This document shows, one piece after another, positions 132 through 33,607 of a stretch of DNA of 37,539 nt (position 1 is the stretch's first letter; the number at the start of each line of letters is the position of its first letter). Under the pieces are notes generated by a model. That model saw nothing but the letters and a program-made list of their open reading frames with translations. It had not been told where the DNA came from and ran no database searches. Made by a program: the position numbers and the translations under genes. This DNA comes from Acidobacteriota bacterium. Its GTDB lineage: Bacteria > Acidobacteriota > Terriglobia > Bryobacterales > Bryobacteraceae. The stretch lies in assembly GCA_025354525.1 (NCBI GenBank), contig JANXMS010000086.1:1-37539 (forward strand). The letters run 5' to 3'.

Positions 132-1421
132 TTACGGTGTCTGGGTTCGCAGGCTTCGTAGATTTTTCAACGCTTCGTTCGCAACTTCGGTATCGGAGTC
201 CTTCGCCAAACCCTCCAGCGCCGACTCCAACGCACGGCTCCCGCTACGTCCGAAAATCTGCGCTAAAGCAAGCTTTTCGATCTTTGTCGACTGGGCCACC
301 ACCGGCTCCAGCGCCGCGCGAACGGCTTCGATTCGCACAAGTTCAATCAAATATCCTTCCGCCATCCCCTTCCAAGCCTTCTGGTTCAGCGTATTCACCA
401 AATAACGCAACGGATCAAACTCCCCCAATCCCAACGCCCCAAGCTTCACCGCGCCGAAAGCCTGCGCCAACCGCGCCCGCATCTTCACCTCTTTTTCGAA
501 CCTTTCCCGCAACGCCGACCCGTCCTCTGCCCGCCCCAGCCGCGCTAACCCTTCCGCCGCCGCCGCCCGCAAATATTCGTCCGTCGCATCCAGTTGCGCC
601 ATAAAAAGCGGGCGAGACCCCTCATCAGGAATCAACGCCACCGCATTCAATGCCGCCCGCTTGACCCGCTCATTCCTCGCCCGATCGTAAGCCTCCCGCA
701 ACGGTGCCACGGACTCCGGATTCATCAGCAAACCCACGGTGTCCAGCGCCGCCACTTGAACTTTGTCATCCAAGTCCCGCAGCAGATAGTGAATCTTCGG
801 TGCTACACTGCGATCCCGGATCTTCTCGAACGCAATCAAAACCTCATAGATCAGCTTGCCGTCCTTCGCCGCCAACGCCTGCACCAAGTCCTCCACAGCA
901 GCCTTCCCGCGCAACACACCCACTGCCCGTGCCGCGTTCGCCCGCGCCATCATTGATCCTTTCCCGTTTGCCCCGTTCCCATTCGTCATCTTCCCCAACG
1001 CCGCCACAACCTCCGGCCGAACCTCCACATGGCCCGGGATCACCTGATCGTTCGTATCCGTCCAACGGCTCAACACCCGCGTCCCCGCCCGCTTCATCGT
1101 CCCACTCAACCCGCGCTCCCAGTACCCAGGAAGATAAAAGTTGACCACGCCATCCGTAGCTCGAATCTGCACCTCTTCATCGCTATCCCACAGCGCCTGC
1201 GTCAGCGGCTCCAACGACGCCGGCCCCCCAATGGCCACCATCGAACGGACCACCTCTCGTCGTACCTCCGCATCCGGGTCCTGCGCATAGGGCAGCAGCT
1301 TCGGAATACCCGCGGCACCTTCCTTGGCCATCGCCTTGGCATACTTCTGCCGTTCCTTCCCCGACGAATCCTGAGCCTGAAGCAACACCGAAAACACAAC
1401 TAAAAGCGACGCAATCCGCAT
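132..1421 (-). CDS. Exported HEAT-repeat protein
   Basis: 429 residues. It begins with a Sec signal peptide (MRIASLLVVFSVLLQAQ), so it is probably periplasmic. The rest is a chain of roughly 30-residue helical repeats of HEAT/PBS-lyase type: DAEVRREVVRSMVAIGGPAS near residue 50, then DEEVQIRATDGVV, DDKVQVAALDTVGLL, NERVKRAALNAVALI and DEYLRAAAAEGLARLG, and a last one near the C terminus (DTEVANEALKNLRSL). Such solenoids act as protein-binding scaffolds; no catalytic residues are visible and no specific role can be given. It is the last gene of the minus-strand run after mqnD. Its first ~17 codons are duplicated upstream in the chimeric mini-gene at 1453-1644. Confidence 0.85.
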   Translation of the reverse strand: MRIASLLVVFSVLLQAQDSSGKERQKYAKAMAKEGAAGIPKLLPYAQDPDAEVRREVVRSMVAIGGPASLEPLTQALWDSDEEVQIRATDGVVNFYLPGYWERGLSGTMKRAGTRVLSRWTDTNDQVIPGHVEVRPEVVAALGKMTNGNGANGKGSMMARANAARAVGVLRGKAAVEDLVQALAAKDGKLIYEVLIAFEKIRDRSVAPKIHYLLRDLDDKVQVAALDTVGLLMNPESVAPLREAYDRARNERVKRAALNAVALIPDEGSRPLFMAQLDATDEYLRAAAAEGLARLGRAEDGSALRERFEKEVKMRARLAQAFGAVKLGALGLGEFDPLRYLVNTLNQKAWKGMAEGYLIELVRIEAVRAALEPVVAQSTKIEKLALAQIFGRSGSRALESALEGLAKDSDTEVANEALKNLRSLRTQTP

Positions 1422-1822
1422 GCTTCTAGGACGACCGCTACGCCCCGAAAGTCTATCGGATAAATTCCAGCTTCACGCGGTTCGGAATCAGCCCGATGTC
1501 ATGACCCATATCAAGCAACTGCTGCGCGGCGCGTGGAATCAGGTCCCCGGCATCCACCGTGTAATGGCTCACATACATCCCGACAAAGGAAGTCTCGGCC
1601 AGAAGCACCATCGAACAAAGAAGGAGAAGCGACGCAATCCGCATGCCTCTAGAACGTCCCTACCCCCCGAAAGTCTATCGGATAAATTCGAGCTTCACTC
1701 GGTTCGGAATCAGCCCGATGTCATGACCCATATCAAGCAACTGCTGCGCGGCGCGCGGAATCAGCTCCCCGGCATCCACCGTGTAATGGTTCACATACAT
1801 TCCCACGAACTTAGTGGCCAGA
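1378..1822. repeat. 222-bp tandem duplication spanning the mqnD 3' end and HEAT-gene 5' end
   Basis: Two adjacent copies at about 1378-1600 and 1601-1822, offset 222-223 bp. Identical stretches include GAAAGTCTATCGGATAAATT (from 1447 and from 1669) and GCGACGCAATCCGCATGC around both start codons. Over the 138 nt encoding the mqnD C terminus I count about 10 differences, mostly synonymous. The original arrangement was evidently mqnD directly followed by the HEAT gene; duplication of the junction created an extra start and stop in between. Copy edges are approximate because similarity fades in the signal-peptide codons. Confidence 0.9.
1453..1644 (-). CDS. Chimeric mini-gene: HEAT-protein signal peptide fused to MqnD C terminus
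   Basis: 63 residues. The first 17 (MRIASLLLLCSMVLLAE) match the signal peptide of the HEAT protein. The remaining 46 match the last 46 residues of MqnD, with three substitutions (K to S, N to S, E to D). It is the product of the 222-bp tandem duplication. The frame is intact from ATG (1644) to stop (1453), with a purine-rich stretch (AGAGG) just before the ATG. Without the MqnD core it cannot be an enzyme; if made, it would be an exported short peptide. It may simply be a neutral by-product, but the open frame and mainly synonymous drift leave translation possible. Confidence 0.5.
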   Translation of the reverse strand: MRIASLLLLCSMVLLAETSFVGMYVSHYTVDAGDLIPRAAQQLLDMGHDIGLIPNRVKLEFIR

Positions 1823-2511
1823 TCCGCCTCCATGTCCCGGGCAAACTGCATCGCGTAGGTGAGCGCTTCTTCATGGTTGTCGAGAGCATATTGAATACTC
1901 TCCCGCATCAACCGGCAGCACTCATTCCGAATCTCTGGCTCCAAATCCCTACGCAGAATATTGCATCCGAGCGGCAACGGCATACCCTGCGTCTTCTTCC
2001 ACCACTTCCCTAAATCGATGATTTGATGAAAGCCGCCCCGAGCATACGTCAATTGCGCTTCGTGGATCACCAGCCCGGCATCCGCCGCCCCATCTTTCAC
2101 CACATCCAAAATCTTATCGAAAGGCACTTCCACCGGAATAAAATCCGGCTGAAAAATGCTCAGCGTCAAAAATGCCGTGGTCATCCGCCCCGGAATCGCG
2201 ATCCGCTTGCCTTTCAAATCCTCAGGCGTCATCGGGCGACTCGAAACAATCACCGGGCCGTAACCGTCCCCGACGCTCGATCCAGACGCCATCACAAAGT
2301 ACTTATCGGCAACATACGGATAGGCGTGGTACGAGATCGCCGTCAACTCGTATTCACCCACCATCGCCTTCTTGTTCAGCGTTTGGATGTCGTCAAGCAC
2401 GTGCCTAAAGTTCACGAGCTTGGAACGAATCTTCTTCGTCGCCAAACCGTAAAACATATACGCATCGTCGGAATCAGGGCTGTGCGCGCAAACTACGTCC
2501 ATAACCGCCAT
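1675..2511 (-). CDS. mqnD: 1,4-dihydroxy-6-naphthoate synthase (menaquinone, futalosine pathway)
   Basis: 278 residues, normal length for MqnD, which converts cyclic dehypoxanthine futalosine to 1,4-dihydroxy-6-naphthoate in the alternative menaquinone route. Family hallmarks are visible: HSPDSDDAYMFYGL at residues 10-23, the EYELTAISYHAYPYV segment, GDGYGPVIVSS, and the periplasmic-binding-protein-like fold pattern (DAGLVIHEAQLTY, then DLGKWW). No signal peptide, so cytoplasmic. No other mqn gene is in the window, which fits the scattered mqn genes common outside operons. Its final 46 codons are duplicated just downstream. A perfect TATAAT lies 12 nt before the ATG. Confidence 0.9.
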   Translation of the reverse strand: MAVMDVVCAHSPDSDDAYMFYGLATKKIRSKLVNFRHVLDDIQTLNKKAMVGEYELTAISYHAYPYVADKYFVMASGSSVGDGYGPVIVSSRPMTPEDLKGKRIAIPGRMTTAFLTLSIFQPDFIPVEVPFDKILDVVKDGAADAGLVIHEAQLTYARGGFHQIIDLGKWWKKTQGMPLPLGCNILRRDLEPEIRNECCRLMRESIQYALDNHEEALTYAMQFARDMEADLATKFVGMYVNHYTVDAGELIPRAAQQLLDMGHDIGLIPNRVKLEFIR

Positions 2512-2522
2512 AGTGAACTTTC

Positions 2523-2528
2523 ATTATA
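2523..2528 (-). promoter_or_regulatory. Possible -10 box before mqnD
   Basis: TATAAT on the minus strand, 11 nt upstream of the mqnD ATG. The best -35 match is TTGGGG, 16 nt further upstream (three of six consensus positions). The implied leader would be only a few nucleotides, so this is either a near-leaderless promoter or chance. Confidence 0.25.
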
Positions 2529-2567
2529 GCAAACAGCCCCATTACCCCAAGCCAAGAAAGGTAGATA

Positions 2568-2930
2568 CTATGCGCTCTCGACCGCCAATTCCAACAAGGC
2601 CGGATGAATATACTGTAACGCCTCATCAAGCTCAGCAAGTCCACGATCCACATGCGCCAAATCCCGATTTCGCCCCATCATTTCCAACACAAACGCCGCA
2701 TGGTAGGCGGCATCGGCCCCAAAATTCGATACCGAACCCTTTAAACTGTGCGCCGCTCGCTGCAGCGCGTCCGCGTCTCGCACCGCCACGGCGTCCCGAA
2801 TCTCTAACAGCAAAGCCGGATACTCATCCAAAAACAATCGCGCTACTTCGCGCAACAACTCTTCGTCGCCGCCGAGTCGCTCAAGCGCCACAGCACTGTT
2901 CAATCGGGCAATTTGTGAGGTGAACTGCAC
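2568..2930 (-). CDS. Stand-alone histidine phosphotransfer (HPt) protein
   Basis: About 120 residues starting at GTG 2930, chosen because GAGGAG sits 6 nt upstream. The longer frame back to 3074 adds only a non-conserved hydrophobic stretch. The phosphorylatable histidine lies in AAHSLKGSVSNFGA (His61), the classic HPt motif, inside a predicted four-helix bundle. HPt proteins relay phosphate between receiver domains and hybrid kinases in the cytoplasm. No hybrid kinase or receiver is adjacent; the only two-component pair in the window is 30 kb away and is not of the phosphorelay type, so its partners lie elsewhere. It is 56 nt upstream of mqnD on the same strand. Confidence 0.8.
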   Translation of the reverse strand: MQFTSQIARLNSAVALERLGGDEELLREVARLFLDEYPALLLEIRDAVAVRDADALQRAAHSLKGSVSNFGADAAYHAAFVLEMMGRNRDLAHVDRGLAELDEALQYIHPALLELAVESA

Positions 2931-3153
2931 AAGACACTCCTCAAGTAACGCTTTGGCGGCAAAAACGACATGGCCTTGGCATAACACTAGCAGATTCAGT
3001 ACTACTACCAAACCCTCCAGACCCTTACTTGTCTCTTCGGCCGACTGCCTACATTCTTGAACAAATCGAGACAAAACACAAGCCCCTCCCCTCGACCCAA
3101 CAACTCAGGCGGCTGATCAGGGTGGCACAGCGAGTACTGGCTGTACGGCCCAG

Positions 3154-4242
3154 CTACTGAGGCACTTCCTCTGTCGGGTCCACCAACCGATCCACCACCA
3201 TCGAGTAAATCACCATCTTCCCGTGCCGGTCCGTTTGAAAGAAGATTCGTTGCGAGTTCGGCGCAAACGTCGGGTTCGCCAACCGAGGGTCCGAGCACTT
3301 GTGCTCGCATAGGGTCAACTCTCGTCGCACCGCCCGCAAGAGCAAGAGCAATGTAGGCTGCGCCTTGCTCCCACTCGCCCCCAAAAACACCGTCGCGTCG
3401 CCGTTAGGGGCAAACCTAACAAACTGGCTCGTCTTGCCCAGAACTACATCGGAGTTCCCATCTGGCGCATACTCGTGCATCTCATTCAACCTGCCTGGCC
3501 CCTCACCCGGTTGTAAAAGATACAATATCGTCCGGCCATCGGGCGACCATTGCGCCTCCAACACTTGCCCGCTCGACGTCTTCAACTGCCGATTCTCTTT
3601 GCCGTCAAAACTGGCGAGCCACAAGCCGCCATCGCGGACATAGAACAAGCCCGCCCGCTTCGGTCGAACCGCCACTTCCGTCAACACCCCTTCAAACTCC
3701 GCCACCGTCTGCAACCCCAGCTTCCCGGTCGGCGTAAACCGAAGCCGCGTCAACGCGCCCTCTTTCTCCGCAAACACCGCATTCAGCCCGTCTTGGGAAA
3801 CACTCAGCTTCCGCCCACTCTCCCGCATCTCCGCTATCACACGCTCCCGCAGCGTGCCCATATTGATCTGCAACAATCGAGCCCCATCAATGGCGTACAG
3901 CCACCGGTCCCCACCGGCCAGCGTCATTGTCTCCGGCTCCAAAGCAGATAGCTCGGTCAATTGTCGCGTCTTGCCAGATTTGACTTCAATCCGGTAAGCC
4001 TGCATCCCTTGACCACGGTCAGAGCCACAAATTAAAAACTCGGCCCGTCGCGAGACCGCCCGCCCCGTATTCGAAGGCAGAATACTCACAAACTCCGGAC
4101 TCGTCAACCGCACCACTTCGAACTCGGTCGTCGGATCGAGAAACCGTTGCCGATCACCCGCCGCTTCCTGTCCCTTACCGCTCGCGGCGAGAACAGGCCG
4201 CGCGCCCATCAAAACGAGAAGCGCGCGGCGAGAAACCATCAC
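3154..4242 (-). CDS. Exported TolB/oligogalacturonate-lyase-like beta-propeller protein
   Basis: 362 residues. The N terminus (MMVSRRALLVLMGARPVLAAS) looks like a twin-arginine or Sec signal. The body is a beta-propeller of WD40/TolB type: repeated blades carry SQDGLNAVFAEKE, WSPDGRTILYLL, FAPNGDATVFLG and FAPNSQRIFFQTD. The overall plan (DPTTEFEVVRLTSPEF start, propeller, closing blade) resembles oligogalacturonate-lyase-like propellers, but I cannot see its metal-binding histidines well enough to claim lyase activity. It follows the DUF3500 gene by 16 nt, so the two are probably co-transcribed. A binding or sensing role in the periplasm is equally possible. Confidence 0.75.
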   Translation of the reverse strand: MMVSRRALLVLMGARPVLAASGKGQEAAGDRQRFLDPTTEFEVVRLTSPEFVSILPSNTGRAVSRRAEFLICGSDRGQGMQAYRIEVKSGKTRQLTELSALEPETMTLAGGDRWLYAIDGARLLQINMGTLRERVIAEMRESGRKLSVSQDGLNAVFAEKEGALTRLRFTPTGKLGLQTVAEFEGVLTEVAVRPKRAGLFYVRDGGLWLASFDGKENRQLKTSSGQVLEAQWSPDGRTILYLLQPGEGPGRLNEMHEYAPDGNSDVVLGKTSQFVRFAPNGDATVFLGASGSKAQPTLLLLLRAVRRELTLCEHKCSDPRLANPTFAPNSQRIFFQTDRHGKMVIYSMVVDRLVDPTEEVPQ

Positions 4243-4258
4243 TCTATTCTAACTTGCC

Positions 4259-5287
4259 TTATTCCTTCGCATGGTTGGCTTTGACATGGTCGCCCAGCAA
4301 ATCCACCCCAAAGTCCCCTGCATAGTCGCGCCAAACCGAGTGGACGTGGTTGTTGTTGTTCTGCGTGTTGTCATATTCCACTAAGAACGTCGGCCCCTGC
4401 ACACGGTAATAATGGCCTTCGCCCTTCCCCGCCGTGCCCGCCCAGGCGAAGTACAAGTTCGTGCCCGCCGCCTTCACCTGCGCCGCCCGCGTTGCCGCCG
4501 CTTGCTCCGGAACATTGGATGCGTATTCATCTAGCAGCGCCGCCAACATCTCCCGCTGTTTGCCCGTCATCTTCGCCGCCGACAATCCATTCGGCTGCCC
4601 CTTCAACGCCGCCACCCGGTCAGCCATCGTGAAGATGTCTTTGTAAGCCACCTCGGCCACCACCGCCGTCTTCACCTGCTCCGCCGTCAACGCCATCCGC
4701 AGATCGCGCCCCAAATCCTCTTCGCGGCCCAATACCCGCAATCCCTTCCGCGGCCCTTCTTTAATCTCCGCCGGATTCGTCCCGAAGAACATCGGACTCG
4801 ACGCCACACGGTTCTTCGCAATCGTCCAGTTCAAAGCCAGATGATGGCCTTCCACCCGATACCCCCAAGTCCCACCCTCGGAAGGCGTGCCAAAGATCGA
4901 GAAGAAATACTGCTCCGGATCCCGCCGACCCACCGTGTCTTTCTCCTGTTGCCGCAGAATGTCTTCCAGGCTCATGATGCTCATCGCCTTCGTGTATCCC
5001 TGTTGCGATACACCCGCGTTCAACAAAGCTTGCGCTAGGTGACGCTGCTCGTGCGACATCTGCTTCAAGGGCAACCCCTTCCGCACCTTCGGAATAAAGT
5101 GCCAGTTCTTGCGTTCATCGTCTTCAAACGAAAATACCGCCTTCGCTTTTTGCTCGGCAGATAACGAAGCCAGAAAAGCATTGGCGGTGTCCGACATCAC
5201 GCGCGGCGTCTGTGTTCTATAGCTGGCGGCCACCAGCAGCAACGCCCCTGTCGAGGCGGCCATCAATCGCAGTTGGTTCGAATTCAT
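4259..5287 (-). CDS. DUF3500 family exported protein
   Basis: 342 residues from the ATG at 5287 (MNSNQLRLMAASTGALLLV, a clear signal peptide). The open frame extends upstream to 5464, but that part is antisense to nothing conserved and runs into the M23 gene, so it is rejected. DUF3500 features include FLASLSAEQKAKAVFSFEDD, WHFIPKVRKGLPLKQM, GTPSEGGTWGYRVEGHHLALN and the C-terminal VEYDNTQNNNNHVHSVWRD. The histidine/asparagine-rich end and the GHHLALN segment suggest a metal site, but the biochemical function of the family is not established. It sits 34 nt after the M23 peptidase gene and 16 nt before the beta-propeller gene. Confidence 0.85.
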   Translation of the reverse strand: MNSNQLRLMAASTGALLLVAASYRTQTPRVMSDTANAFLASLSAEQKAKAVFSFEDDERKNWHFIPKVRKGLPLKQMSHEQRHLAQALLNAGVSQQGYTKAMSIMSLEDILRQQEKDTVGRRDPEQYFFSIFGTPSEGGTWGYRVEGHHLALNWTIAKNRVASSPMFFGTNPAEIKEGPRKGLRVLGREEDLGRDLRMALTAEQVKTAVVAEVAYKDIFTMADRVAALKGQPNGLSAAKMTGKQREMLAALLDEYASNVPEQAAATRAAQVKAAGTNLYFAWAGTAGKGEGHYYRVQGPTFLVEYDNTQNNNNHVHSVWRDYAGDFGVDLLGDHVKANHAKE

Positions 5288-5321
5288 CTCAAGGGCCCTT
5301 CTACTACCCTCGACGATTCTA

Positions 5322-6209
5322 TTAGAAAGGAAGGTCCTTTTGCACGGTCGCCACCACGAGTGACTTGGCAAGGTACTTGTAAGGGTTAATCGGTGCGCCA
5401 CCCTGACGAACCTCATAGTGCAAATGCGGAGCCGTTGCCCGCCCTGTGCTGCCACTCCGACCAATCACCTGACCGCGACGCACCTCCTGCCCCGGGATCA
5501 CTTCAAACGAAGACATATGCGCGTAATACGTCTCTAAACTGCCACCATGGCTGATCACAATCAACTTGCCATAGCCGCCGCTCCACCCTGCGGATCGGAC
5601 AATCCCGTCCGCCGCCACTTTGATCGGCGTCCCCGTCGTACACGAAATATCCACACCCGGGTGAAATGCCGAACCTCCGGAAAACGGGTCGGTTCGAGAT
5701 CCAAACGAACTCAACAAGCGACCGTTCGTCGGCCAAATGCTCGGCACAACATTCTGCTGCCAAAGCTGATTGATCCGACGCGTCCCCGGATTGAAAACTC
5801 GGGTCGTCCGCAACAGGTCGTACTGCTCAATCGACTCCTGAAAGGTCGGCATCAGCTTCCCTTCCGCGGCAATCGATTGCGGCCCGTCCATCCGCTCTTT
5901 GATCCCGTAAACCATCGAAACTTCGGACGCGAGCATTTGCAACGTCGCCAACTGCTCTTTCGTCTGCTCCGTAGACCGTTGCAAATCCTGATACCGCCGC
6001 TGCAACGAAGAAACTTCATCCCGAAGATTGTTATAGTTCGTCACCTTCCACGCCATCCGGGCGTAGGAAGATACGAAACCCACCACCGTAAACGATCCGA
6101 TCAAAGCCAGCGTCAAAACCGTATACAACACCGTATGCGACAGATGCACGCGGCGAAGACGACCGTGGACGGAATGGGCGATAACGACAACGAAATGAGG
6201 TTGCTTCAT
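5322..6209 (-). CDS. Membrane-anchored M23 (LytM) peptidoglycan endopeptidase
   Basis: 295 residues. A short cytoplasmic basic segment is followed by one membrane span (about residues 28-50), a coiled coil (about 55-98) and a C-terminal LytM domain (about 158-280). Zinc ligands are visible: HPGVD (His183, Asp187) and HLHYE (His262, His264), with YYAHMSS supplying the other active-site histidine. This is the layout of envelope M23 enzymes that cut peptide crosslinks during growth or division. Because the ligands are complete it is probably active, unlike degenerate EnvC/NlpD activators. It starts a minus-strand run with the DUF3500 protein 34 nt downstream. Confidence 0.9.
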   Translation of the reverse strand: MKQPHFVVVIAHSVHGRLRRVHLSHTVLYTVLTLALIGSFTVVGFVSSYARMAWKVTNYNNLRDEVSSLQRRYQDLQRSTEQTKEQLATLQMLASEVSMVYGIKERMDGPQSIAAEGKLMPTFQESIEQYDLLRTTRVFNPGTRRINQLWQQNVVPSIWPTNGRLLSSFGSRTDPFSGGSAFHPGVDISCTTGTPIKVAADGIVRSAGWSGGYGKLIVISHGGSLETYYAHMSSFEVIPGQEVRRGQVIGRSGSTGRATAPHLHYEVRQGGAPINPYKYLAKSLVVATVQKDLPF

Positions 6210-6318
6210 GCTCGATTAAATTCTGGACGCATGAGACACGATCGAGTCCAAACGACCCAAGGGATGTGTCGCATTTTTCACCCTATCACCCAACGACTAC
6301 CCCAGTCAACCCTAAAAG

Positions 6319-7641
6319 CTATAGACGAATCGGCCAACCCGGTGCCGTCGGCGGCAGATAATCGTACGTGTTCTCCATCCATTCGCCCAGTCTTCGTTGC
6401 AACGCTTGTCGAATATCGGCATGTGCCGCACTCGTCGCCAAGTTCTGAAACTCGTCCGGATCCGTCGCCAAATCGTAAAGCTCCACCATCGGCCGGGTCG
6501 GCTGCAACAACCTGCCGTGATTCGCTGAAAGTTTCCCCCTCCGCGACAGCTCCAAATAGCTCTTCCACGTCGGGCTCCCCTCCAAATCCAACGCCGGGCG
6601 GTATGGAAAATGCGGTGCGGCGTTAAAGATCAGCTTGTGCCGCTCCGTCCGTACGCTCCGAATCGGGTCAAAATTGTCATGCCAATTCCGCTCGCTGAAG
6701 ACAGCCTCTCGCTGCCGATAGGGCGACCCGTCCAGAAGCCCTCGAAAGCTCACGCCCTGCATCTTTGGCGGAACCGCAACGTTCGCCAAGTCGAGCCAAG
6801 TCGCCGGCAAGTCGACATGAGAAATCAACTCCTCCCGCACCACGCCACCTTTCTGGCCTGGTCGCGCCACGATCAGCGGCACATTAATCCCAGGGTCGTA
6901 GCAGGTCCCCTTCGCCCCAGGAAACGGCATCCCGTTGTCCCCGCTGAAAAACACGATCGTATTCTCCGCCAAACCTCGCGTCGTCAGCAAGTCCAGGAGT
7001 TGCCCACATTCGCCGTCCATCCGGGCAATGAAATCAGCGTACATACCCAGGTCCTCCCGCACCTCTGTTGTGTCCGGCAGGAACTTCGGCACCCGCACCT
7101 TCGCCCGGTCGTGCGGTGGATCAAACGCCTTACCCACGTAAGGCCGATGCGGGTCCGTAAATCCAACATGCAGAAAGAATGGCCGATTCGTCGGTCGCTG
7201 GTCAAAAGACTCCGCGAACGCCGCTGTCTTCTCCGCCCGATAAAAATCAAACCGACGATTAAACTCGTTCCCCTGATGAACCTTCCGAAACCCGCCCGTA
7301 TAGTAACCACGCGCCTTCAACAGCTCCAAAAAGCTCTGTTCCCAAGCCGGCATGGGAGTGTGCAGACGCGAAGTGCCCGTCGTATGCGCCGTGCAACCTG
7401 TGAAGATCGCCGACCGATTCGGACTGCACTGGGGCGAGGTCACAAAACAGTTGGCGAACCGTGTCCCCCTCTGCGCCAGCCGATCCAAGTTCGGCGTTCG
7501 GATCCCCAGGTTACCAGCGCACCCCAAGTCCGCCGCCGTGTGATCATCCGAAAGCAGAAAAACGATATTCGGGGGTGCCGGAGTTGTCTGCGCGAGTGCC
7601 GCGGTCGTTCCAAGAAAGCCGCGTCGAGTTGGCCCATTCAT
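6319..7641 (-). CDS. Tat-exported sulfatase (formylglycine type)
   Basis: 440 residues from the ATG at 7641. The open frame continues upstream only as the antisense of the SDR gene, with glycine/valine/aspartate-rich nonsense, so it is excluded. The start carries a twin-arginine motif (TRRGFLG). Alkaline-phosphatase-fold sulfatase features follow: NIVFLLSDDH with metal-binding aspartates (residues 32-33), the maturation motif CSPNR with Cys72 as the formylglycine precursor, HVGFTDPHRPY, and FFSGDNG supplying further metal ligands. It resembles iduronate-sulfatase-like enzymes acting on sulfated glycans in the periplasm. It is divergent from the SDR gene with only 24 nt between start codons. 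Confidence 0.9.
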   Translation of the reverse strand: MNGPTRRGFLGTTAALAQTTPAPPNIVFLLSDDHTAADLGCAGNLGIRTPNLDRLAQRGTRFANCFVTSPQCSPNRSAIFTGCTAHTTGTSRLHTPMPAWEQSFLELLKARGYYTGGFRKVHQGNEFNRRFDFYRAEKTAAFAESFDQRPTNRPFFLHVGFTDPHRPYVGKAFDPPHDRAKVRVPKFLPDTTEVREDLGMYADFIARMDGECGQLLDLLTTRGLAENTIVFFSGDNGMPFPGAKGTCYDPGINVPLIVARPGQKGGVVREELISHVDLPATWLDLANVAVPPKMQGVSFRGLLDGSPYRQREAVFSERNWHDNFDPIRSVRTERHKLIFNAAPHFPYRPALDLEGSPTWKSYLELSRRGKLSANHGRLLQPTRPMVELYDLATDPDEFQNLATSAAHADIRQALQRRLGEWMENTYDYLPPTAPGWPIRL

Positions 7642-7651
7642 CTGCGAACAG

Positions 7652-7662
7652 GATAGCCTATC
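7652..7662. promoter_or_regulatory. Palindrome between divergent sulfatase and SDR genes
   Basis: GATAGCCTATC is a perfect 11-bp palindrome lying in the middle of the 24-nt gap between the two divergent start codons (7641 and 7666). It could be a shared operator. The gap is too short for two full promoters with leaders, so transcription must begin inside the opposite gene or be leaderless. Confidence 0.35.
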
Positions 7663-7665
7663 TAC

Positions 7666-8418
7666 ATGCAGATCGATCTCTCCGGCCGCCACGCCATCGT
7701 CACTGGCGGCTCCCACGGCATCGGCCTCGCCATGGCCCAAACCCTCGCCGCCTGCGGTGCCCACGTCACCGTCTTCGACCTCGACGCCCCCACCCCCGTC
7801 GACGTCACCAACCGCGCCAGCCTCGACGACGCCTTCAACCGCTCCCCCGTCCCCGACATCGTCATGATCAACGCCGGCACCGCCTACCTCCGACCAATCC
7901 CCGATACCACCCGCGACATCTGGGACAAAACCCTCGCCCTTAACCTCACCGCCGTATTCGAAACCCTCCAGGCCGCCTCCAATCGCATGCGCGCCGCCGG
8001 CCGACCCGGCGCAATCGTCCTCACCGCCTCCACCAACTCCTACGACGGCGAAGAAAACCTCATCGCCTACAACGCCACCAAAGCCGGCGTCCTCGGCCTC
8101 GTCCACACCGCCGCCAACGAACTCGGCCCCTACGGCATCCGAGTCAACGCCATCAACCCCGGACTCATCCAAACCCGTCTCACCGCCGACTCCTTCAACA
8201 ACGAAACCGTCATCAAAGAATACTTCCGCGCCATCCCCATGGGCCGCGGCGGTCAACCCGAAGAGGTCGCCAAAGCCGCCGTCTTCCTCTCGAGCGACTG
8301 GGCCAGCTACATCACCGGCACCACCCTACTCGTCGATGGCGGCCAAATGGCCTGCAAGTTCGGCCCCTGGCGCGACGCCGAAGCCGAGTTCCGCAATAGC
8401 CGTTGGCAACGCCGCTAA
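7666..8418 (+). CDS. Short-chain dehydrogenase/reductase
   Basis: 250 residues, typical for a classical SDR. The NAD(P)-binding glycine motif is TGGSHGIG at residues 14-21, followed by NAG (MINAGTAY), the catalytic serine in LTASTNSYDG, and the active-site YNATK (YxxxK). The C terminus has the usual SSDWASYITGTTLLVDGG, which marks FabG-like oxidoreductases. The short VFDLDAP after beta-2 suggests NAD rather than NADP. The substrate cannot be read from sequence. Its position between two sulfatase genes suggests a role in sugar or polyol oxidation after desulfation, which is inference. Its end overlaps the convergent sulfatase by 4 nt. Confidence 0.9.
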   Translation: MQIDLSGRHAIVTGGSHGIGLAMAQTLAACGAHVTVFDLDAPTPVDVTNRASLDDAFNRSPVPDIVMINAGTAYLRPIPDTTRDIWDKTLALNLTAVFETLQAASNRMRAAGRPGAIVLTASTNSYDGEENLIAYNATKAGVLGLVHTAANELGPYGIRVNAINPGLIQTRLTADSFNNETVIKEYFRAIPMGRGGQPEEVAKAAVFLSSDWASYITGTTLLVDGGQMACKFGPWRDAEAEFRNSRWQRR

Positions 8419-29297: not shown

Positions 29298-29385
29298 ATG
29301 TATTTCGGTCGAGTCCAGCCCACTCTTCTTGAAAGCGTCTCCGTCAACGACGGCCCCCTCATTTGGTGCAAGCTCGAATCCTTAA
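29298..29385 (+). pseudogene. 5' scrap of a PLP-dependent lyase gene
   Basis: An ATG at 29298 opens about 29 codons reading MYFGRVQPTLLESVSVNDG and then PLIWCKLESLN. This closely follows the N terminus of PLP-dependent beta-family enzymes (cysteine synthase, threonine synthase type: TPLLE...IWAKLE.LN). The next element, a glycine/serine-rich PLP lysine motif, is missing because the sequence runs straight into the antisense of the RidA-like gene, whose stop is at 29382. It is therefore a truncated gene, broken by the event that placed the RidA-like gene here. Confidence 0.5.
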
Positions 29386-29762
29386 ACGGCCGACGCGATC
29401 ACTTCAATCTCAATCCGCGCCCCCGCCGACAGCCGCTTCACCTCCACCCCCGTCTTCGCCGGAGCATGGGGAAAGTAAGCCCCATAGACTTCGTTCAAAG
29501 CCCCCAGCTCATCCACGTCCGTCATGTAGACCGTCGTCTTGGCCACCCGCGCCAAGCTGCTCCCCGCCGCCTCCAGTATCGTCTTGATGTTTTCTATCGC
29601 CTGACGGTATTCCGCCACCTGACCCCCAGTCGCCAGTGCCCCCGTCTCCGGGTCCACCCCCAACTGCCCCGACACAAACAATAAGTCGCCCAGCCGCACC
29701 GCTTGGCTATAAGTCTGGTTTCCCGGCGGAATCGCCGCCACTGCAATCGAAATTGGAATCAT
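29382..29762 (-). CDS. RidA/YjgF family protein lacking the catalytic arginine
   Basis: 126 residues from ATG 29762; the longer frame to 29831 has a non-family extension. Features: GDLLFVSGQLGVDPETGALA, NIKTILEAAGSSLARVAKTTVYMTD, VYGAYFPHAPAKTGVEV and ARIEIEVIA. In Salmonella RidA the imine-deaminating arginine (Arg105) lies in PARSCVEV; here it is lysine (PAKTGVEV, residue 103). That puts it among Rid relatives that may lack or alter 2-aminoacrylate deaminase activity. The RidA name is therefore a family name only. Confidence 0.8.
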   Translation of the reverse strand: MIPISIAVAAIPPGNQTYSQAVRLGDLLFVSGQLGVDPETGALATGGQVAEYRQAIENIKTILEAAGSSLARVAKTTVYMTDVDELGALNEVYGAYFPHAPAKTGVEVKRLSAGARIEIEVIASAV

Positions 29763-29854
29763 GTCTCTCAGCCTAGAACAAATTAAATGAACAAATGACA
29801 ACCTCTCGAAAGCAACGCCACGTTTGGCCATTGGCGTGCTCCATTAAAGGCAGG

Positions 29855-29948
29855 CAGACTGTCCCGGCGGTGACCATTTTTGTTGCTTCTGGAATATCCT
29901 AGGTTGGGCCAAAGTAGAGCAGCGTCAGGCCTGGCACGGGACAGTCTG
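29855..29948. repeat. 94-bp element bounded by 12-bp perfect inverted repeats
   Basis: CAGACTGTCCCG at 29855-29866 is exactly inverted as CGGGACAGTCTG at 29937-29948, with about 70 nt between that carry no gene. The arms differ just outside the 12 bp. This layout suits a small non-autonomous transposon-like element or a REP-like repeat; copy number elsewhere cannot be checked here. No target-site duplication is obvious. Confidence 0.5.
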
Positions 29949-29977
29949 GCTCACGCCAAATTGGAGTGAGCACCAAA

Positions 29978-30160
29978 TTAAATCGGTCGTCCGCTCCTCA
30001 TCTTTCTCCCCACCATCCCCACGATAACGGTAACATTGACTGCAAGTGATCGCCCCATCGTACGTCGTCTCTCACGCCTATCTGGTTCCCTCACCCAATC
30101 CGGGCCCTCCACCGAGTAATTGATGTCCGCGCTCAGAGCCTCGTAGTTGAACGTAGCCAA
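29978..30160 (-). CDS. Possible small basic protein
   Basis: 60 codons from a TTG at 30160 with a purine-rich AGAGG upstream: MATFNYEALSADINYSVEG, then WVREPDRRERRRTMGRSL and a hydrophobic NVTVIVGMVG. It is divergent from the KaiC gene. The arginine-rich patch followed by a hydrophobic stretch is not a known motif. It may be non-coding. Confidence 0.2.
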   Translation of the reverse strand: MATFNYEALSADINYSVEGPDWVREPDRRERRRTMGRSLAVNVTVIVGMVGRKMRSGRPI

Positions 30161-30189
30161 TTAGCCTCTCCCTCGAAAAGGAATGTTAT

Positions 30190-31719
30190 ATGCGTAAGCC
30201 TGTGAAGAAAATGGACGTCGTTAAGGCTAAAACATTAGCGAAATGCCCCACTGGAATTAAGGGCTTTGACGAGATTACCGAAGGAGGCCTTCCAAAAGAC
30301 AGAACCACTCTACTCTCGGGAGGCGCCGGGTCCGGAAAAACCCTTCTCGGACTCGATTTTCTAGTTAGAGGTGCAACCGATTACAATGAGCCCGGCGTCT
30401 TCATGTCCTTTGAGGAGACCGCGGATGAACTTTATAAAGACGTGGCCTCGCTCAATCTCAATTTGGAAGCGTTGGTTTCACAAAAGAAGATCATACTTGA
30501 GCATGTGATCCTCGAGATAAGCGATATCCAAGAGAAGAATTTTAATCTTGAAGGCCTACTCGTCCGCCTGGAACATGCCATCGATTCCATTGGCGCCAAA
30601 CGCGTCGTCTTGGATTCTCTCGAATCTCCCTTTGCAGGAATCAAAGACGCGGGCATTCTGCGCGTCGAGATAAAGAGGCTTTTCCGCTGGCTTAAGAATA
30701 AAAAGGTTACCGCAATCGTTACCAGCGAACCCCTTCAAGGGTATAGCCGAAATGGGCTGGAAGAGTTCATTTCCGATTGCATCATCTTCCTCGACAACAG
30801 GGTAAAAGAACAAATCGCAATCCGTAGAATCCGTGTTGTTAAATATCGGGGCTCCAAGCATGGCACAAACGAATATCCTTTCGTGATCGATAGCGAAGGC
30901 CTGTCGGTGATTCCCATCACTTCAGCAGGTCTTGACCAGCCAGGTACAGCCGCGAAGGTTTCGACGGGAATTCCATCTTTAGATAAACTCTTCTGGGGTG
31001 GAAACCCTGGATACACTCGAGGCAGTACGATACTGGCGTCGGGGACCGCGGGCACCGGAAAAACGAGTCTTGCGGCTGCGTTCGCAATAGAAAGCTGCAA
31101 ACGGGGAGAACGGTGCATTTTTTATTCTTATGAAGAGTCAGCGGGTCAACTGAGCCAAAACATGGGCTCGATCGGGTTCGACCTCAAGCCATGGATAAAA
31201 AAAGGGCTCTTGAAAATTGTGGCGATCAGGCCCTCTTTTTCGGGCCTGGAGGTACATCTGCTCGACTTATACAAGCTTGTTGGAAGCTTTAATCCGCAAT
31301 CTGTTGTGATAGATCCTTTGACTAGTCTCATTGGCGAGGGCGACGAACGGGAAATTCGATCCATGATCACTCGGATGATTGATCTTCTTAAATCTAGGGA
31401 AATAACGACTTTTTTCACAAGTCTCGTTTCTTCTTCCTCTGCCAATGATACAAGTGGCGAAATCGGAGTCTCGTCATTGATCGACACCTGGATAGTCGTA
31501 AGAGAGTTGGAAGAAGATGCGGGTCGAAAACGCACTCGTGGGCTTTTTATCGTCAAGTCTCGGGGCACGGGCCATTCCAGCGACGTCCATAAATTGATTT
31601 TGAGTGATACAGGGATCACCCTGGAACAAATGGATGCTGGCCCCAGTAACCTTGCGGAGCAGAGGAAGAAAATCACTACCGCCCAGAAAGTTAAGATGGG
31701 TAAACCTACTGAGGTTTAG
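30190..31719 (+). CDS. KaiC-like double-domain ATPase
   Basis: 509 residues, the length of cyanobacterial KaiC. It has two RecA-like halves: the first with Walker A GGAGSGKT (residues 44-51) and catalytic glutamates in SFEETADE (75-76), the second with Walker A GTAGTGKT (285-292) and YSYEESAG (315-316). In KaiC the autophosphorylated Ser-Thr pair lies in a segment ending in ITDT; here GVSSLIDTW (Ser428, Ser429) occupies the equivalent place, so phosphorylation is possible with a serine in the threonine position. No KaiA or KaiB is present. It is 3 nt before the cheB-like gene, in AT-richer DNA with AAA, GAA and ATT codons, so it was probably transferred as a unit. The role could be energy or time-coupled signalling, but this is inference. 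Confidence 0.9.
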   Translation: MRKPVKKMDVVKAKTLAKCPTGIKGFDEITEGGLPKDRTTLLSGGAGSGKTLLGLDFLVRGATDYNEPGVFMSFEETADELYKDVASLNLNLEALVSQKKIILEHVILEISDIQEKNFNLEGLLVRLEHAIDSIGAKRVVLDSLESPFAGIKDAGILRVEIKRLFRWLKNKKVTAIVTSEPLQGYSRNGLEEFISDCIIFLDNRVKEQIAIRRIRVVKYRGSKHGTNEYPFVIDSEGLSVIPITSAGLDQPGTAAKVSTGIPSLDKLFWGGNPGYTRGSTILASGTAGTGKTSLAAAFAIESCKRGERCIFYSYEESAGQLSQNMGSIGFDLKPWIKKGLLKIVAIRPSFSGLEVHLLDLYKLVGSFNPQSVVIDPLTSLIGEGDEREIRSMITRMIDLLKSREITTFFTSLVSSSSANDTSGEIGVSSLIDTWIVVRELEEDAGRKRTRGLFIVKSRGTGHSSDVHKLILSDTGITLEQMDAGPSNLAEQRKKITTAQKVKMGKPTEV

Positions 31720-31722
31720 CTC

Positions 31723-32325
31723 ATGGGAACCTTACCCAACTACGTTGTGGGGATTGGCGGCTCCGCTGGAAGTCTAGTCGCGTTCAAAGACCTCCTCGGC
31801 TGCCTTCCGTTTAATACGGGGATGGCGTTTGTCTTTGTTGCTCACATCGTACCGGACGCCAATAGTTACTTGGCTGAAATTCTGTCCAGATGTACAACTA
31901 TGCCAACAATGGTGGCCTCCACGGCGATGGCGATCCAGGCCAATCACGTCTACGTAAGCGCTCCGAACTCAGATCTTCTGATAGAGAACTATCGCTTCAA
32001 AGTAGTCTGCCCCCGCACGAAAAGGAACGTGCTCATAGACTACCTATTTGCTTCTCTAGCCGATGCGATGGGGTCGGGTGCGATCGGCATCGTCCTATCT
32101 GGATACCATGGCGACGGTACTGAGGGATGCAGACAGATTAAAGCGAAGGGAGGAATAACCTTCGCCCAGGACTCCTCGGCCGAAGTACGCGATATGCCTT
32201 TCAGTGCTCAGGATGCGGGCTATATTGATTTCGTCCTTTCCCCAAGTAAAATCGCAGACGCGCTTGCCGAAATCGCAATCGCCTCAAACGGAAATTCTTC
32301 GCCAGTACACCGCCGAAAAAAATAA
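31723..32325 (+). CDS. Stand-alone CheB methylesterase (no receiver domain)
   Basis: 200 residues, only the CheB catalytic domain. The serine-hydrolase triad is visible: Ser14 in GIGGSAGS, His41 in FVAHIVPD and Asp131 in LSGYHGDGTEG. FAQDSSAEVRDMPFSAQDAGYIDFVLSP near the end is typical of CheB. The N-terminal receiver domain that normally controls CheB is absent, so activity would be unregulated or controlled through a partner, possibly the adjacent KaiC. CheB removes methyl groups from chemoreceptors or deamidates them; no cheR or receptor gene is near. Same codon use as the KaiC gene, 3 nt apart. Confidence 0.88.
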   Translation: MGTLPNYVVGIGGSAGSLVAFKDLLGCLPFNTGMAFVFVAHIVPDANSYLAEILSRCTTMPTMVASTAMAIQANHVYVSAPNSDLLIENYRFKVVCPRTKRNVLIDYLFASLADAMGSGAIGIVLSGYHGDGTEGCRQIKAKGGITFAQDSSAEVRDMPFSAQDAGYIDFVLSPSKIADALAEIAIASNGNSSPVHRRKK

Positions 32326-32355
32326 GCGAATCCCCTCCCCCGAATCGTCAAAATC
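32326..32355 (-). pseudogene. Degenerate second copy of the response-regulator 3' end
   Basis: On the minus strand the sequence TTGACGATTCGGGGGAGGGG matches the end of the regulator gene (TTGACGGTTCGGGGGGAGGGG, within 32930-32960) with one lost G and a few changes. In the regulator this codes for the winged-helix ending ILTVRGEGYRF. The copy lies right after the CheB stop and at the far end of the toxin-antitoxin wreck. It is a duplicated or left-over regulator tail. Confidence 0.45.
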
Positions 32356-32648
32356 GACGTCCTGACTCCACCCTTGCCCCCCACCGCTCTCCGCCAACCA
32401 TGCCGGACGTGCAGGACATAGACGGCGAAGTTCGGTGAATCAACAAAAAAAGACGACCCTATGCGATCTATAAACGATCTGCCGAATCTCTTCTTGAAAA
32501 TACTCACGCTCACGGGCGTAAGCGCAACGCTCCGGGAATCGCTCCAGCGTATCTATCTGAGTATTTGGAGCCTGCTCGTTGATAGACAGAAAGGAATCTC
32601 TAATCCCAGCCTGCGCATCGGGGTGACGATTACCCGATGTCGTTTCAT
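32356..32648 (-). pseudogene. Decayed ParE/RelE-type toxin gene
   Basis: The ATG at 32648 overlaps the antitoxin stop by 3 nt (ATGA). The original protein can be pieced together from three frames: MKRHRVIVTP, then PDAQAGIRDSFLSINEQAPNT, an apparent internal deletion, IDTLERFPERCAYAREREYF, EEIRQIVYRSHRVVFF, and in another frame VDSPNFAVYVLHVRHGWRRA. This is the ParE/RelE plan (LERFPERC...EEIRQ...YRVVF...HVRHG). One base is lost near CCCCGATG, another shift is in a run of seven T, and the central helix is deleted. The lower boundary is approximate. Confidence 0.65.
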
Positions 32649-32910
32649 CGCAGCGAAATGCCATGTTCCCTCGCCAACTCTTCAAGAAACTCCCGCATCG
32701 GACGACCTTCACCCCGCGTTGCCTCCTCCAATCCCCGACTCACGCTCCGAATACTCGAAAGTTCCTCTTGGTCGTCAAGCAGTTTTTGGTAAGCATCGGC
32801 ACTCTTTTCCCATTCACGGCGAGCACCTCAAGCTGCCCCGAATCCTTAAGTCGGCGAAGGTGGTCCTTCGTGTTTCGCTGAAAGTCGCTCAACGAATCGC
32901 ATGTCAGCGC
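32645..32910 (-). pseudogene. Decayed Phd/YefM-type antitoxin gene
   Basis: Two frames give a recognisable Phd antitoxin: DSLSDFQRNTKDHLRRLKDS, GQLEVLAVNGK, then after a frame change ADAYQKLLDDQEELSSIRSV and RPMREFLEELAREHGISLR before the stop at 32645-32647. The normal AEVVVQ segment between NGK and the YQKLL helix is deleted, which shifts the frame. The 5' end is also missing because it runs into the end of the regulator gene. The gene cannot make a working antitoxin. Confidence 0.65.
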
Positions 32911-32917
32911 AAGCCCC

Positions 32918-33607
32918 CTACCCAACAAACCGATACCCCTCCCCCCGAACCGTCAATATATGCTTCGGCGTCTGCGCCTCCTCCTCCAACTTCTGCCGCA
33001 ACCATGCCACATGCACATCCACCGTCCGCGGCGTGATAAACCGCTGCTGACTCCACACCTGCCCCAATAACCACTCCCGCGTCAACACCTGCCCCCGATG
33101 GTCTATCAAGCACCGCAAAAGCTGCATCTCCTTCGCCGCCAAACTCACCGCCACCCCGTTCCGCGTCACCGAAGGCCGCGAAAAATCCACACTCACCCCC
33201 CCAAACTGAAACCGCAACACCGGCGTCAATTGCTCCTTCCCCACCCGCCGCAACAACGCCGACACCCGCGCCACCAACTCATTCGGGTCAAAAGGCTTCG
33301 CCAGATAATCGTCCGCCCCAATCTGCAAACCCAGCACCCGATCTGCCACCTGCGAACGCGCCGTCAACATCAATACCCCCCCATCAAAGCCCTGCTCCCG
33401 CATCGCCCGACACACCGCAAAACCATCCATCCCCGGCAACATCACATCCAAAATCAACAAGTCGTACCGGCCATCGGTCGCCATCCGCACCCCCTCCGGC
33501 CCCGTCCCCGCCGTCTCCACCGCATGCCCCTGCGCCCCCAAAAGGTCCGCCACCACCAGGGCAATATCCGGTTCATCTTCAACCAGCAGAATGCGCGAAT
33601 TCGTCAT
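32918..33607 (-). CDS. OmpR-family response regulator
   Basis: 229 residues. The receiver domain (residues 1-120) has phosphoacceptor Asp54 in LLILDVMLPGMDG, the acidic pocket EDEPD, the TAR switch threonine and Lys in YLAKPF. A winged-helix DNA-binding domain follows (LAAKEMQLLRCLIDHRGQVLTRE, ITPRTVDVHVAWLRQKL, ILTVRGEGYRFVG). It acts as a transcription factor after phosphorylation by the kinase gene overlapping upstream by 29 nt. The likely target is the divergent di-heme peroxidase and its own operon, judged by repeated half-sites upstream. Confidence 0.93.
   Translation of the reverse strand: MTNSRILLVEDEPDIALVVADLLGAQGHAVETAGTGPEGVRMATDGRYDLLILDVMLPGMDGFAVCRAMREQGFDGGVLMLTARSQVADRVLGLQIGADDYLAKPFDPNELVARVSALLRRVGKEQLTPVLRFQFGGVSVDFSRPSVTRNGVAVSLAAKEMQLLRCLIDHRGQVLTREWLLGQVWSQQRFITPRTVDVHVAWLRQKLEEEAQTPKHILTVRGEGYRFVG

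Follow-up and report, generated by a model that had tools for sequence, protein, structure and literature searches.

Results

A double-domain kaiC precedes a stand-alone cheB

The window analyzed here comprises positions 1 to 37,539 of contig JANXMS010000086.1 (assembly GCA_025354525.1, Acidobacteriota, Bryobacteraceae), to which all window coordinates refer. Among its open reading frames (ORFs) is a kaiC encoding 509 residues that is followed, after an intergenic gap of 3 nt, by a cheB encoding 200 residues (Table 1). The KaiC protein matched Pfam KaiC (PF06745) over two stretches (E = 7e-110) and scored above the cutoff of the NCBIfam KaiC equivalog PRK09302 and under that of TIGR02655 (circ_KaiC). 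Its best match in the PDB was the KaiC of Rhodobacter sphaeroides (KaiC_RS; 8DBA), which scored 473 bits, whereas the KaiC ranked next scored 322. Alignment located the Walker A residues at K50/T51 and K291/T292 and the glutamate pairs at 75-76 and 315-316, i.e., two KaiC domains that each carry a Walker A motif and catalytic glutamates, as in KaiC2-type proteins. The dual phosphorylation position is occupied by Ser428 and Ser429, which are invariant in all 18 aligned KaiCs of the clade described below. According to an excerpt of PMC5520375, KaiC2 carries two serines at its phosphorylation site, and the part of PMC10076222 that we used assigns this role to S413/S414 of KaiC_RS. The CheB protein covered the full PF01339 model (residues 9 to 181, E = 4.9e-44) and has the catalytic Ser14, His41, and Asp131 in place; a Pfam scan of its 200 residues detected no receiver domain.

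The first-pass annotation had described a double-domain KaiC with both Walker A sites, catalytic glutamates, and a Ser-Ser pair, lying 3 nt before a receiver-less CheB with an intact triad, and each of these elements was recovered by the alignments, the ORFs, and the profile matches (PF06745, PRK09302, PF01339). It had also stated that no KaiA, KaiB, cheR, or receptor lies nearby. Indeed, the window contained zero KaiB matches, and no chemotaxis gene was found in a scan of eight neighboring genes or recognized by eye among the other ORFs of the window, so that cheB does not sit in a chemotaxis operon. Around the pair, no Rfam family matched, and promoter-like and terminator-like sites were in no excess over shuffled sequence.

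Table 1. Coordinates of the kaiC-cheB pair and associated features in the window
Feature	Coordinates	Strand	Basis
kaiC: two-domain KaiC ATPase/kinase of the CheB-pairing clade, without A-loop, short tail	30190..31719	+	ORF, Pfam/NCBIfam, alignment, tree
Codons of the dual phosphorylation position, Ser428-Ser429, unchanged throughout the clade	31471..31476	+	Aligned with KaiC_RS S413/S414
Codons of the C-terminal tail (31 residues), at the place of the A-loop and long tail of most KaiB-type KaiCs	31624..31716	+	Alignment
cheB: stand-alone CheB methylesterase/amidase domain, Ser14-His41-Asp131, no receiver	31723..32325	+	ORF, Pfam, alignment, tree
Outer limits of the insertion, judged against the syntenic site in sister genome G094	29776..32508	.	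Right edge by eye perhaps near 32388

The kaiC-cheB pair recurs in seven phyla

Contigs were scanned with an alignment of two CheBs from such pairs, those of the window and of G220, another member of its family; since the scan used two peptide patterns, it retrieves close relatives only. The 79 loci obtained split cleanly into 26 with 56 to 74% identity and 53 with at most 50%. KaiC lay directly upstream of CheB in 19 of the 26, and the sequence around the 53 others contained no KaiC near CheB (0/53). Whole-genome searches yielded six more loci of the pair-type CheB, which brought the total, with the window, to 33. Three of these (L127, L131, and L132) are cut by a contig end; of the 30 that could be judged, 24 have KaiC as the gene directly before CheB. 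The 22 pairs measured ranged from an 8-nt overlap to a 57-nt gap, taking the nearest CheB start codon. Inspection of ~850 to 8,000 upstream bases revealed no KaiC at L115, L119, L124, L129, L229, and L230. Among these six, L129 is degraded, and L119 (Mucilaginibacter psychrotolerans) has a KaiB ~1.8 kb upstream, the only KaiB near this CheB subfamily.

The pairs belong, by record name (for two of them by shared genome), to Acidobacteriota, Melainabacteria, Chloroflexota, Bacteroidota, Bdellovibrionota, Pseudomonadota, and Nitrospira. Most of the loci come from metagenome-assembled genomes, which we count against a functional module. Two named isolates carry the pair: Mucilaginibacter flavidus has two copies (one cut by a contig end) and one lone CheB, and Polaromonas eurypsychrophila has one on a 212-kb contig. 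Judging by their names (Chersky, palsa, bog, Kiruna, psychrotolerans, eurypsychrophila), several carriers among L105 to L132 may come from cold or peat sites. At L236, a second CheB domain (1163-1708, 41% identical) faces the pair, in a genome that also contains the Nitrospira-labeled L129.

Besides KaiC and CheB, only receivers (5 loci) and histidine kinases were common to more than two loci, and no third family other than kinases occurred in more than 5 of the 27 counted (the window plus the 26 closer loci of the contig scan). A Pfam scan of 20 neighbors of pair loci likewise found nothing in common. The module is rare, as only the window genome contained it among the 396 of a phylum-wide sample. 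Within the window's family, both KaiCs of the pair kind (2 of 237 genomes) adjoin CheB. No relative in viral carriers turned up when IMG/VR was scanned with KaiC or with the CheB alignment, and the 417 CheB and 283 KaiC plasmid records that matched were all below 60% identity; among those inspected, two KaiC records have KaiB and two CheB records contain CheB within long proteins.

The gene-neighborhood comparison had been set beforehand as a test of the proposal in the first-pass annotation that the genes form an uncharacterized two-gene module, and the conserved co-occurrence in 24 of 30 judgeable loci and seven phyla agrees with that proposal. We searched the literature for KaiC with CheB or methylesterase, for KaiC neighborhoods or operons, and for CheB/CheR fusions; no KaiC-CheB pair was described among the matches listed, including the excerpts of PMC5847659 and PMC13286277.

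CheB occupies the place of KaiB

KaiCs that are ~43 to 54% identical to that of the window adjoin KaiB at all 62 distinct loci checked (28 + 35, with one repeat removed) and CheB at none. Conversely, the sequence around the 24 pair loci contained no KaiB. So that loci would not be preselected by their CheB, we also searched 351 genomes from the family of M. flavidus with KaiC only. Among its 88 matches, the five KaiCs with at least 70% identity (78 to 80%) were all followed by CheB, none fell between 54% and 78%, and KaiB was present at 29 of 29 loci checked from the other 83. The window genome itself has a second KaiC (L068, G000:C38:2054-4517), split into two overlapping pieces by a frameshift or an assembly error, and its sole KaiB match adjoins this second gene on contig C38. 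In the loci checked, KaiB and CheB are mutually exclusive, and CheB occupies the place that KaiB holds in related KaiC operons.

KaiC and CheB each form one clade, and the paired KaiC is remodeled

A KaiC tree was built from 56 of 62 rows, after removal of four presumed near-duplicates and two broken rows. In it, the 18 pair KaiCs formed one clade (100/100) on a long branch, in which the sister of the window's KaiC was a Melainabacteria sequence (100/99) and not that of G220 from its own family. The position of the clade among the KaiB-type rows, where it groups with two long branches (88/17 and 93/87), is weakly supported. The CheB tree likewise united the 28 pair-type CheBs in one clade (100/100); here too the window's copy was next to that Melainabacteria locus, and the KaiC-less L115 and L124 branched deepest. 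Distances in the two trees correlated over 17 loci (Mantel r = 0.76, 0 of 9,999 permutations as high). Against a module, only 5 of 14 splits were identical in both trees, and the six loci with no KaiC upstream, two of them deepest-branching, show that a CheB of this kind does not need a KaiC to persist.

The C-terminal tails of the pair KaiCs are 26 to 36 residues long; those of 37 of 42 KaiB-type rows reach at least 70. A strict A-loop pattern was found in none of the 18 pair KaiCs versus 36 of the 42 KaiB-type rows, and two of the six misses in the latter, L186 (KaiC_RS) and L085, have a close variant by eye. According to the excerpts used, the A-loop switches cyanobacterial KaiC between kinase and phosphatase (PMC8538168) and the tail of KaiC_RS forms a coiled-coil regulatory moiety (PMC10076222). 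Tail lengths in the two outgroup KaiCs are 35 and 41 residues, and one of these proteins shows the A-loop pattern. The missing A-loop of the pair clade thus looks like a loss; the missing long coiled-coil tail could be ancestral, given the short outgroup tails, and need not be a loss. With our own cutoffs, 22 alignment positions separate the pair KaiCs from the KaiB-type KaiCs, including 118-119 and 464-469 (CII domain). At 118-119, which we take to lie in the KaiB-binding B-loop stretch, the Tyr-Asp of the KaiB type is Phe-Asn in the pair clade. The B-loop is the KaiB/SasA site of cyanobacterial KaiC in the part of PMC6378743 that we used.

These data bear on the possibility that the two genes are adjacent only because one mobile fragment carried both, with no functional partnership. 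Such hitchhiking would fit the mobile behavior of the pair and the six loci that have CheB and no KaiC, but against it stand the strict exclusion between KaiB and CheB, the differences confined to the KaiCs of the clade (the tail and the 22 positions), and the finding that no third family except kinases recurs in more than 5 of 27 loci. We give it a slim chance.

The pair lies in an insertion

At 0.485 and 0.521, the GC contents of kaiC and cheB are the lowest of the 13 window genes measured, as are their GC3 values (0.52 and 0.56, against 0.69 to 0.84 in the 11 others). The flanking genes are on one contig in seven sister genomes, and none of the six compared had a match to kaiC-cheB at the syntenic site (0/6). 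In G094, the closest, 141 bases stand in place of 29776-32508; G101 likewise lacks the pair and has ~260 bases at the site. The pair therefore lies in a roughly 2.6-kb AT-richer insertion relative to the sister genomes. This insertion, together with the recurrence in seven phyla, supports the earlier suggestion that a codon use unlike that of the neighbors reflects transfer as a unit. We recognized no transposase by eye among the ORFs of the insertion, and no RNA family was found in it.

Other features were noted around the site. Near the left edge of the insertion, 29852-29951 is an imperfect palindrome with 15-nt arms; a 75% similar stretch lies on the opposite side of ridA in G101, and the palindrome may be a small repeated element. 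A G094 gene between the CxxCxxCC-domain gene and ridA (L272 1001-1812), cysteine-synthase-like by eye, is missing in the window (29383-29387). Right beside the insertion (window 32388-32925, L272 2202-2842), two small G094 frames that we take by eye to be relE-like and phd-like are degraded in the window. We dropped a reading of 32324-32404 (repeats) as the remnant of a response-regulator gene; by eye, 32388-32513 matches the end of the relE-like frame of G094, and the window remnant of that frame had no Pfam match.

Catalytic residues are retained, and some CheBs are fused to output domains

Both genes are under purifying selection: dN/dS was 0.07 to 0.11 in 6 comparisons of KaiC and 0.13 to 0.19 in 5 of CheB, although dS exceeded 1 in some of these. 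Little or no variation was seen at the KaiC motif residues, where one pair row deviates at the second CI glutamate. In the rows with a letter at the position, the CheB triad is conserved at Ser in 28/28, His in 27/28, and Asp in 30/30 (L129, L131, and L183 left out of the count). The exception, L114, has Gln in place of His, which counts against the module.

Some CheBs run on into further domains. At L112, after kaiC, CheB continues into a histidine kinase (CheB-HisKA-HATPase), and at L114 it continues into a cNMP_binding domain that is cut by the contig end. At L110 (999-1442), a C-terminal extension of CheB weakly resembles a response regulator receiver (E = 0.005); if it is a receiver, the order CheB-receiver would reverse the classical receiver-CheB.

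We considered whether CheB could do the job of KaiB, i.e., bind or modify KaiC so as to switch it between kinase and phosphatase, with the output lying elsewhere. The replacement of KaiB in the gene order, the change at 118-119 in the presumed B-loop stretch, and the absence of the A-loop, which removes the usual switch, are all in line with such a regulator. However, the fusions to a kinase or a cyclic-nucleotide-binding domain in relatives point to an output, and the triad is kept in nearly all CheB copies, whereas KaiB is not known to be an enzyme. A regulatory role thus seems rather unlikely.

No chemoreceptor match in most of the host genomes searched

The 28 genomes with a pair-type CheB were searched for the MCP signaling domain. 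Matches were obtained in 10 (9 of them above the curated cutoff) and in 7 of 14 control genomes; the 18 negative genomes include 6 of 6 from the family of M. flavidus, and several of the 28 are incomplete, so single absences are weak. The window genome has five MCP matches, which we count against the module. These matches, those in the 10 positive genomes, and the Pfam CheB assignment would suit a classical chemotaxis methylesterase that stands beside KaiC by chance. Against this, CheB has no receiver, no che gene was recognized among the other ORFs of the window, and the lack of a detected chemoreceptor in 18 of 28 genomes makes classical receptor demethylation unlikely. CheB is therefore unlikely to be a chemotaxis methylesterase, and we attach a very slight probability to this explanation combined with chance adjacency. 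The first-pass annotation had also suggested that KaiC could control protein demethylation or deamidation; CheB does retain its triad, but a chemoreceptor would be an improbable substrate.

The genomes with no MCP match would suit a CheB fold that is a noncatalytic adaptor, a docking domain that only reads KaiC. The fused output domains agree with this idea, and an adaptor role is favored at L114, whose copy has both the cNMP_binding fusion and the lost triad His. Nevertheless, the conservation of the triad and the low dN/dS of CheB argue against it, and we consider the adaptor improbable as a general explanation.

Discussion

In the kaiC-cheB pair, adjacency and order are conserved, each partner has a common ancestry, catalytic residues are near-completely kept, both genes are under purifying selection, and the window's copy lies in an insertion. 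We favor, with a probability of about 0.6, a mobile two-gene module in which a KaiC2-type ATPase/autokinase has swapped KaiB for a CheB hydrolase domain, so that signals would run from KaiC through CheB to an output. In such a module, a KaiC hexamer, set by ATP/ADP and by the phosphorylation state of Ser428/Ser429, would dock or gate CheB. CheB would in turn relay the state of KaiC, most likely by hydrolyzing a Glu-methyl ester or a Gln on a protein other than a chemoreceptor; candidate targets would be a partner kinase or KaiC itself. Alternatively, the state could be passed on by an output domain fused to CheB, like the histidine kinase and the cyclic-nucleotide-binding domain of relatives. 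Structure models of KaiC alone (15 rows) and of a read-through KaiC-CheB (30 rows) reached pTM values of 0.44 and 0.35, respectively. Only CheB and some portions of both KaiC cores were modeled with confidence, and their mutual arrangement was not, so these poor models allow no argument about an interface, which counts against the module. More tentatively, the pair could be a KaiC-driven mobile timer or energy sensor that operates without an A-loop, has a serine hydrolase in place of the fold-switching clock partner KaiB, and has as its output the reversible covalent modification, by ester or amide hydrolysis, of a protein outside chemotaxis.

The pair has counterparts in known systems. The long CheB-containing signaling proteins, a kind that typically has CheR and kinase parts, contain the closest CheB domains outside the clade (at most 50% identical), and in 26 of the 27 rows measured their frame continues for 157 to 1287 residues past CheB. 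Compared with the CheB of chemotaxis (PDB 1CHD, 1A2O), the pair CheB has the same catalytic domain and triad positions, but it lacks the receiver, no chemotaxis genes were recognized nearby, and many of its hosts have no MCP match. The KaiBC hourglass of Rhodobacter (Cereibacter) sphaeroides (KaiC_RS, PDB 8DBA), as presented in the excerpt of PMC10076222, shares the Ser-Ser pair, the EE pairs, and the Walker motifs, with kaiC directly before its partner gene; the pair KaiC differs in having CheB in the place of KaiB and in lacking the A-loop and the coiled-coil tail. The kaiC-HK of Ramlibacter tataouinensis, as given in part of PMC3164672, similarly has a KaiC with no adjacent KaiB and then a signaling gene, which recalls the CheB-kinase fusion of L112. 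The Ramlibacter kinase begins with a domain likened there to KaiB/SasA, in contrast to the CheB domain here, and CheB is unmentioned in the excerpt of that paper that sets out three kaiC contexts.

The complete swap of partner and the absence of the A-loop switch make this clade a natural experiment that separates the parts of KaiC that serve KaiB from those that serve the kinase/ATPase. The cultured hosts Mucilaginibacter and Polaromonas offer a way to ask what CheB does in bacteria of which some apparently have no chemoreceptors. If a timer with a hydrolase output is real, it would tie the Kai family chemically to chemotaxis-type adaptation, a connection that we did not find in the literature searched.
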